Shown here: positions 22,604 to 23,551 of the stretch, piece after piece | Layout of the letters: every line of letters begins with the position of its first letter | How positions within the stretch are numbered: position 1 is the first letter of the stretch | Assembly: GCA_008933015.1 (NCBI GenBank) | Contig: WBXH01000009.1 | Location: 1 to 34,974, forward strand | Origin: Verrucomicrobiota bacterium | Lineage (GTDB): Bacteria > Verrucomicrobiota > Verrucomicrobiia > Chthoniobacterales > UBA6821 | DNA length: 34,974 bases | Reading direction: 5' to 3' | Made by a program: the position numbers and the translations under genes | Notes under the pieces: model-generated | The model's input: the letters and a program-made list of their open reading frames with translations, nothing else | What the model was told of the DNA's origin: nothing | Databases searched by the model: none

Positions 22604-22678
<75 letters not shown>

Positions 22679-23082
22679 GTATTTATTGGGCTCAAATCGG
22701 CATTTTCCCTTTTTAGAAAAGGGAGCGCACTGGACTTCTGTGCTGGTGCATTTCCTTATTAGGGGTGCTTTTGTGGATTGGGCTATGACGCATTGGCTCT
22801 CGTGAATGTCTATCGTCGCAATAACAAATCAGTAGCAAGAAGGAACTGATTATACTGCGAAGCAGCCCCTTAGGGGTAAGTGGCTCGGTAGAGCCCGAAA
22901 TCAAATGCGTAGCAACTCCCGGGTCTTCAAAGGTTGCGTAATCAGACATAGCTTTTCAAAGAGCATCCATCTCCTGAAAAGAGGTGGGTTTCCTCTGGTT
23001 ATTTACGCATCCGGTGACAACGATATCACTTCAAACCGATGCAATCTGCATAAGCCACGCACAAGCTCTACCAAAAGCCCCC
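22679..23082 (+). other. 404-bp region without a gene, rich in short stem-loops
   Basis: No convincing coding frame is found on either strand between the tRNA and the YCII-like gene; the composition looks more AT-rich than the flanking genes. It holds a perfect 8-bp inverted repeat with a triloop just after the tRNA (TCCCTTTT at 22706-22713, AAAAGGGA at 22717-22724) and a string of five further stem-loops at 22827-22937. TGCGTA occurs twice (22905-22910 and 22935-22940). No integrase gene, and no second copy of the tRNA 3' end, was seen. It could be the tRNA trailer plus a leader or small RNA, or decayed sequence. Confidence 0.6.
22827..22937 (+). ncRNA. Candidate structured RNA: five consecutive stem-loops
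   Basis: The stems in order are AATCAGT/ACTGATT (22827-22833 with 22845-22851), CTGC/GCAG around GAA (22855-22865), CCCC/GGGG around TTA (22866-22876), GGCTC/GAGCC around GGTA (22882-22895) and GCAACT/GGTTGC (22912-22917 with 22932-22937). The first loop contains AAGAAGGA. I do not recognise a known RNA family. Only the complementarity is observed; expression and function are inferences. Confidence 0.35.
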
Positions 23083-23502
23083 ATGAAACGAACCACCAAA
23101 AAAACGGCAGTACGAGACAGATACTTAGTGATCGGAACCCATGGCCCAGGATTCACGACACAGGAGGAGGAACTCGCAGTGCTCCAAGACGGCATCATTC
23201 CTTCCTTCAACGCACTCCATCAACTGGAAGAAAAGGGCATCATCCTTGCCGGAGGGCTTCCACTGGGTGAAAGGACGCTGGTTTTCATCATGGAGGCCTC
23301 AAGCAATGAACAAGCGGACCGAATCCTGCGCGAGTTGCCCTGCTGGGGCGTCTTTGACTGGGAGGTGAGGCCGATCCTGAGCTTTGGAAAACGATCCAAA
23401 GAGGAGCAATCCATTGTTTCCAAGCTCAAGAAGAGAATAAAGTATAACACGCCCATAACCACGCGGGAAAAAGACTGCTCCCGCGATTCTCAATCCTTTT
23501 AA
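23083..23502 (+). CDS. YCII/muconolactone-isomerase-like dimeric alpha-beta barrel protein
   Basis: 139 residues from the ATG at 23083; the frame is open to 22984, but the upstream part has no similarity and lacks a good start. The pattern RYLVIGTHGPGFTTQEEELAV, then HQLEEKGIILAGGLPLGERTLVFIMEA, then ADRILRELPCWGVFDWEVRPILSF matches the beta-alpha-beta layout of YCII-like and muconolactone-isomerase-like domains, which are small dimeric barrels often of unknown substrate. The Lys/Arg-rich C-terminal tail (SIVSKLKKRIKYN) is an addition. A perfect 7-bp inverted repeat (CGCGGGA/TCCCGCG, 23462-23485) lies inside the last codons, and a strong terminator follows. Enzymatic activity is unproven. Confidence 0.7.
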   Translation: MKRTTKKTAVRDRYLVIGTHGPGFTTQEEELAVLQDGIIPSFNALHQLEEKGIILAGGLPLGERTLVFIMEASSNEQADRILRELPCWGVFDWEVRPILSFGKRSKEEQSIVSKLKKRIKYNTPITTREKDCSRDSQSF

Positions 23503-23507
23503 TAATT

Positions 23508-23551
23508 ACCCATCTCCTCCCAATTAATCGGCGGGGATGGGTTTTTCTTTT
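23508..23551 (+). terminator. Rho-independent terminator after the YCII-like gene
   Basis: ACCCATC (23508-23514) pairs with GATGGGT (23536-23542), with possible inner CCC/GGG pairing, and is followed by a T-rich tract TTTTTCTTTT (23542-23551). It begins 5 bp after the stop codon and ends 40 bp before the next start. Confidence 0.75.

Follow-up and report, generated by a model that had tools for sequence, protein, structure and literature searches.

Introduction

Most small non-autonomous repeats consist of a single palindrome and are linked to a known transposase. REP/REPIN sequences are not known to produce target duplication. Rickettsia palindromic elements (RPE) are palindromic and dispersed, lie also inside protein genes and are known for in-frame inserts, and the SDR repeats of Nostoc, which are short, folded and smaller than the element presented here, sit within simple tandem repeats. 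REP sequences are described in PMC3733652 as palindromes of 20–40 bp in high copy, and the same paper records GTAG repeats in the PVC group, with Opitutus terrae highly enriched. ERIC/RU sequences and MITEs appear in PMC2229807 and PMC2759123 as non-autonomous, intergenic elements of about 100–170 bp. No description of the element family analysed here was recognised in the available parts of the open-licence literature.

The element lies in a window (the whole stretch of DNA analysed, 34,974 nucleotides) on contig C9 of an incomplete Verrucomicrobiota genome assembly of 1.42 Mb. Like REP/REPIN with their RAYT transposase, it is short, non-coding, hairpin-forming and present in many copies per genome. 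In contrast, REP/REPIN consist of one short palindrome, carry a GTAG/CGTC tag and are accompanied by RAYT, whereas the element has four serial hairpins in about 80 nt, displays no constant tag that could be seen and has no transposase linked to it in searches of Y1 genes and of matches to covariance models R1 and R2. Like RPE it is dispersed, palindromic and found in protein genes, although three of the four measured inserts shift the reading frame, whereas RPE insert in-frame, and the structure differs. ERIC/RU and MITEs resemble it in being non-autonomous, intergenic and small; it differs from both in its serial hairpins with covarying stems, in that the module has no visible terminal inverted repeat, and in the absence of target duplication at two compared sites in an HsdR gene. 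Nostoc SDR share the short folded form and the placement in simple repeats; here a 36-nt repeat is often found within CGCAGAG-like repeats and can carry a separate 80-nt module.

Results

Organisation of the window locus

The preliminary description had reported five consecutive stem-loops in the 111 nucleotides at 22827–22937. Stems 1–4 are present and are kept in relatives with compensatory changes, whereas the proposed fifth stem (GCAAC...GTTGC) is unsupported and accidental: its left arm is the tail of the element, and its right arm, nucleotides 22933–22937, belongs to what looks like the end of a PEP-CTERM-type gene. The 111-nt stretch resolves into a shell surrounding a module (Table 1). 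The element scores 108.3 bits (E 3.1e-29) with R1 and 91.6 bits (E 2.1e-31) with R2, of which it is the sole match in the window, this copy being itself among the members of both models. It is 73–82% similar at the DNA level to same-genus copies. P1–P4 are all retained; U-A replaces, at the sixth P1 pair, the C-G usual in most copies, P4 has C-G in place of U-A, and the closing stem P0 is lost. The dinucleotide AA (22903–22904) comes right after the module core.

Table 1. Features of the element and its neighbours in the window.
Feature	Position	Strand	Basis
Whole dispersed element (shell and module)	22818..22930	+	Matched by R1/R2
Shell, left part (36-nt-type repeat)	22818..22825	+	Alignment A2, short forms
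Module core: AAA, four hairpins, CGAAATC	22826..22902	+	Bounds set by comparing 36-nt short forms and modules in other contexts
Hairpin P1, ATCAGT/ACTGAT, arms 22828-22833 / 22845-22850	22828..22850	+	Covariation
Hairpin P2, CTGC-GAA-GCAG	22855..22865	+	Covariation in 47-member set only
Hairpin P3, CCCC-TTA-GGGG, abuts P2 directly	22866..22876	+	Covariation
Hairpin P4, GGCTC-GGTA-GAGCC	22882..22895	+	Covariation
Shell, right part (AAATGCGTAGCAAC...TTCAA)	22903..22930	+	Alignment A2, short forms
Apparent PEP-CTERM-type gene end (last codons, stop) and degenerate terminator hairpin, outside element	22933..22991	+	Similarity to G009
tRNA-Lys (CTT), neighbour only	22604..22678	+	ARAGORN, Rfam tRNA
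YCII-like gene (name from preliminary description), neighbour only	23083..23502	+	ORF

The segment following the element shares 82% similarity with the terminator and preceding gene end on G009:C109, and its part at 22951–22975 is also similar to contig C60 of the window's own genome (G000). The gene ending here looks like one of PEP-CTERM type, by eye from its C-terminal motif, and the element lies between the tRNA-Lys gene and the tail of this apparently lost gene. Participation of 22933–22991 in a larger fold was rejected in favour of a gene end with terminator. No local function is indicated for the window copy. Terminator-like hairpins of one kind (CCATCTCC...) are positioned at 22968–22991 and at about 23508–23550, the latter downstream of the YCII-like gene and with a good T run; a terminator hairpin of the CCATCTCC type also follows the PEP-CTERM-type gene in G009. 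Pfam gave no YCII match at E<=0.001 for the YCII-like ORF, the only hit being a sub-threshold match to MIase. Orthologues of this ORF were found in three other genomes in the family search, with neither the element nor tRNA-Lys upstream within the fetched DNA (734 nt in G009), and in the longest-matching orthologue (L157) similarity to the window begins at 22988, past the element.

Taken as a single sequence, the stretch has structure of weak to modest significance. The minimum free energy of 22827–22937 is no better than that of shuffled sequences (z -0.36; 71 of 200 shuffles as good), while 2 of 100 shuffles of the wider gap 22679–23083 fold as well. The summed base pairs of perfect stems in the shorter stretch were reached by 23 of 2000 dinucleotide shuffles, its three tight hairpins by 32/2000 and its hairpin number by 193/2000. 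The claim of more structure than expected by chance thus has modest support from stem counts and none from the folding energy of the 111-nt stretch, and the case depends on relatives. Chance stems, left possible by the energy and modestly opposed by the stem counts, are ruled out by the covariation described below. In the window the Rfam gathering score was reached by tRNA alone; a relaxed threshold gave nothing of note on the stretch and no informative match at six loci of copies, HEARO being absent from both, and a known RNA family was rejected on these grounds.

Dispersed copies in related genomes

The gap 22679–23083 was used as a DNA query against 58 related genomes including its own. The part 22822–22933 matched at unrelated places in other same-genus genomes, with 12 matches in G007 alone and a best match below 1e-9 in 7 of the 57 other genomes. 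When the fetched copies were aligned, the conserved sequence stopped abruptly and the flanks were unrelated. The neighbours of the copies are varied and some copies are inside genes. Of 24 copies, 20 entered alignments A1 and A2, while the long forms L022 and L023, L027 at a contig end and the tandem truncated L030 were left out. Copies within one genome are on average 86–92% alike (G007, n=7; G012, n=5; G010, n=3).

Covariance model R1 was built from 20 copies and the broader model R2 has 47 members; with 150 (R1) and 25 (R2) candidates scored per genome, the genome counts are lower bounds. R1 matches occur in at least 20 of the 22 family genomes at E<=0.1. Among 147 genomes of the order, at least 61 have R2 matches at E<=0.001, comprising 22/22 within the family and at least 39/125 outside it, and spread over at least 17 of 39 genera. 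Eleven R2 loci (nine outside the family and one each in G019 and G021) were re-examined, and the same model recovered all eleven; the B and C hairpins were plain by eye in nine and less so in L169 and L170. The loci of the two second-genus species, L171 (G021:C49) and L173 (G019:C103), both display serial hairpins and have a near-identical module in similar surroundings; they look like the same place in two species, and perhaps represent a shared old insertion. At L111 (G008:C282) the module ends directly at a gene that resembles, by eye, one for tRNA-Ser. A pattern scan of viral contigs gave no match. L131 (Rhizobiales), one of five contig pattern hits, was discarded as a chance hit because R1 found nothing there at E<=1.

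The window's own genome, as judged by model scores, holds one clear copy plus one weak match (G000:C71:4064-4165, 25.1 bits, E 1.1e-5); one more R2 match is without significance (E 3.1). Conservation of the stems in relatives, raised in the preliminary description, is thus found in the form of a dispersed family and not at this locus.

Fold and compensatory change

The five-helix structure, consisting of the closing stem P0 and P1–P4, has standard pairs in 94.2% of cells among the 20 copies. Double changes affect nine pairs and 15 cells in this set, a level reached by none of 500 shuffles, and slid versions of the structure give at most 8 cells. In the 47-member set (A3, all 47 matches, two being 36-nt short forms), 225 double-change cells compare with 65.7 in shuffled and at most 47 in slid versions, and the covariation score of 0.491 drops to 0.140 on shuffling and to no more than 0.076 on sliding, A3 being fitted to the model and its counts therefore biased towards structure. 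Double-change cells count sequences, not events. P2 has no double change among the 20 copies and four changed pairs among the 47 members, P3 has one and three, and P4 two and five, respectively. P1 occurs as TCAGC/GCTGA, CCTCC/GGAGG, CCTGC/GCAGG and other variants, and P4 as GGCTT/AAGCC, GGCGT/ACGCC, CCTCG-type and others. The compensatory changes for which comparison of related genomes had been proposed are thereby found in all of stems 1–4. Conserved although unpaired are AAA ahead of P1, the loop of P1 (GACTGGCGGGA), GGA between P1 and P2, CGAG between P3 and P4, and CGAGTTCAA after P4; the second genus deviates in several of them. These comparisons of sequence give good support to the reality of the stems and to the dispersal of the element.

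Two layers and nesting

Many R1 matches are 36-nt short forms, GCCGTAACGGATGCGAAGCAACGGCCGGGCAAGCAA or near to it, whose middle is GG in 15 of the 16 fetched and GT in one. In the long form a module AAA...TTCAA takes the place of this GG, and the same modules are found without the 36-nt shell too. The shell contains a short inverted pair, GCCGT/ACGGC, and sometimes has similar flanks on both sides (by eye). Modules also lie within modules, in the P1 loop in L022 and L023 and between P3 and P4 in L097 (by eye). Two kinds of host, the 36-nt repeat and the P1 loop, display GG when empty and AA beside the module end when filled (L022, L023 and short forms L079-L094), and for this reason 'precise insertion' is not strict at these two hosts. 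Modules of other sequence and like architecture (e.g. AACCAAGCCCG...GGCGTCAA) were observed beside or inside modules at L032, L033, L097, L022 and L023. The 36-nt repeat, with or without module, was often observed within microsatellite-like sequence such as CGCAGAG, GGGATAAAGGGGAT or CACGAAAG (L021-L047, L085-L091).

Insertion sites and inserts in genes

From the 47 rows, 41 were usable and 12 with a 36-nt shell were set aside, leaving 29 modules. These modules outside the shell are followed by AA in 24/29 and by CA in 5/29, and have no constant 5' neighbour. Their flanks are somewhat complementary to each other, with a mean stem of 3.45 against 2.80 in permuted pairs (13 of 2000 permutations as high). 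The signal is modest, and some modules have common flanks and are therefore not all independent. This complementarity suggests placement in hairpin loops.

Two intact homologues served to identify a type I restriction (HsdR) gene that holds modules in two Verrucomicrobiaceae genomes (L127, JAIBCL010000041.1, 2651-4170; L130, DDQZ01000072.1). Four R2 matches are located in the L127 gene and two in the L130 gene, all six antisense to it. At two comparable sites L127 reads TTT and TTC, and in L130 an insert stands between TT and C, of 81 nt at the first site and 79 nt at the second; in module orientation these are insertions before AA, with target duplication absent. A third site has an 82-nt insert common to both genes. 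Some inserts are thus private and others shared. In the L127 genome the two exact patterns searched are confined to the HsdR contig, and R2 gives weaker matches on three other contigs. An empty site was found neither for the window copy nor for any copy of its family. A reverse transcriptase gene (L128, 1063-1801), with RVT_1 on one piece, carries three modules, two antisense and one sense, one of them a 59-nt insert after TT. The context TT^C or TT^T is shared by three HsdR inserts and the RT insert, and of the measured inserts (79, 81, 82 and 59 nt) three out of four are frame-shifting.

Across 321 codons in coding pieces of the HsdR gene, L127 and L130 show 52 synonymous and 12 non-synonymous differences, which gives an omega of 0.059. 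Outside the inserts, the coding part of L130 has also lost 1 nt. Within the shared insert the two copies are unlike at 1 of 83 positions, against a dS of 0.28 at synonymous sites, and parts of another insert differ at 3 of 77. Because the inserts differ far less than synonymous sites, they are probably recent or homogenised.

Search for a mobilising enzyme

Matches to Y1 (IS200-like) transposases were found in 5 of the 22 family genomes, at 8 loci, with one gene confirmed by Pfam. None of the 8 loci contains an R2 match at E<=1. Five Y1 genes of 312-352 aa (L119, L120, L124, L125, L126) had both sides read, and GGGGTC-type motifs in inverted arrangement flank every one, with upstream repeats of the motif in most. 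The Y1/GGGGTC combination is a system different from the modules. R1 detects a weak 36-nt short form some 1.1 kb upstream of Y1 in L119 (17.3 bits, E 0.0022) and gave one match at E 0.24 in L125; on contig C33 of G007 about 2.2 kb separate the element at 35-148 from the Y1 gene at 2330. In the second genus, G017, G018 and G020 have Y1 and are rich in R1 matches, and G016, G019 and G021 are without Y1 and have 0, 1 and 0 matches. With R2, these last three genomes have 1, at least 23 and at least 25 matches, respectively. Because R2 matches are abundant in G019 and G021 without Y1, the link to RAYT suggested by R1 was withdrawn. An invariant GTAG or CGTC end tag was not seen by eye in the 47-member alignment.

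RVT_1, present in 3 of 22 family genomes, does not track the elements. The TnpB-type domain (PF07282, Cas12f1-like_TNB) exceeded the cut-off in 0 of 22, with one sub-threshold match in G019. Reverse transcriptase and TnpB were rejected as general movers on these counts. Candidate relations to attC, ribozymes and bridge-RNA were considered by eye only.

Discussion

The reading preferred here, to which a probability of roughly 0.62 is given, is that the stem-loops are a REP/MITE-like relic: a single copy of a multi-hairpin element, non-coding, dispersed and about 80 nt long, that sits inside a shorter, 36-nt dispersed repeat. The earlier suggestion of a remnant of a mobile element agrees with the many dispersed copies, the nesting and the filled and empty alleles in a gene of remote relatives. 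The window element is a single degenerate copy with behaviour of the REP/MITE type, yet the tests of a RAYT connection came out negative.

Movement of a REP-like element by a RAYT or IS200-like (HUH, Y1) transposase that recognises hairpins in single-stranded DNA is considered unlikely. The Y1 mechanism is compatible with the hairpins, with the absent target duplication and with the suggested placement in hairpin loops; Y1 occurs in five family genomes including G007, which has the most R1 matches (at least 96), and the weak short form of L119 and the element on G007 C33 are near Y1 genes. However, Y1 is absent from 17 of the 22 genomes, several of them module-rich (R1: G012, at least 33; G010, at least 30), the co-occurrence in the second genus vanished under R2, and the GGGGTC flanks of the five Y1 genes, the lack of R2 matches at the 8 Y1 loci and the absence of a constant 5' neighbour also argue against it. 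The TTCAA 3' end, which presumably resembles the right ends of IS200/IS605, together with the compact structured unit, would suit a TnpB/IscB-type guide-RNA scaffold or the template of a retro-element, a very improbable reading in view of the Cas12f1-like_TNB and RVT_1 counts and of the lack of HEARO or any other informative Rfam match.

The strong covariation, the conserved unpaired GACTGGCGGGA loop, CGAG and CGAGTTCAA, and the abutment of some copies on gene ends (e.g. L039, L062, L076) are also what a duplicated functional small RNA or cis-acting RNA of the host, such as a terminator or stability element, would display. High copy number, varied neighbours, nesting and copies inside genes make this improbable, as does the presence of just one clear copy in the window's genome, and a dispersed repeat does not need a small-RNA role. 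A leader or riboswitch of the YCII-like gene, proposed in the preliminary description and prompted by the position of the element upstream of it, is hardly credible: the three further family genomes that have the gene lack the element within the fetched upstream DNA, and the reading was rejected because synteny contradicts it. The modules in genes could also be intron-like or byp-like, so that the mRNA loses them or the ribosome passes over them, which would accord with several inserts in the HsdR gene of two species whose coding omega is still 0.059 and with the TT^C or TT^T sites of three HsdR inserts and one RT insert. Against this stand the mixed orientation (HsdR 6/6 antisense; in L128 two antisense and one sense), the 1-nt deletion of L130 outside the inserts and the single difference in the shared insert, according to which the inserts may be recent. 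Purifying selection predating insertion would explain a low omega together with inserts. We take the gene inserts to have struck dispensable genes recently, and consider removal or bypass only remotely likely.

If the stem-loop stretch is a relic of a dispersed multi-hairpin element, as preferred above, the element would be non-autonomous and mobilised in trans, now or formerly, and in the window's genome it would be a fossil. We infer movement as a folded single strand, of which DNA would be a more likely form than RNA, with an insertion preference for loops between complementary sequences. It is possible, and proposed here only tentatively, that these elements form a separate class of mobile element, widespread in one bacterial order of the Verrucomicrobiota, which would move as a folded single strand by a mover outside the Y1, TnpB and RT families searched, enter loops before AA without target duplication, nest in one another and tolerate variation of their stems provided that pairing is kept.

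With its four-hairpin architecture and no evident enzyme, the family departs from the usual small non-autonomous repeats. The many compensatory differences between copies suggest that selection acts on the fold itself during the spread of the element. The copies are also natural variants ready for testing which of the unpaired motifs matter. Identification of the mover would reveal a new route of mobilisation or an extension of a known one.
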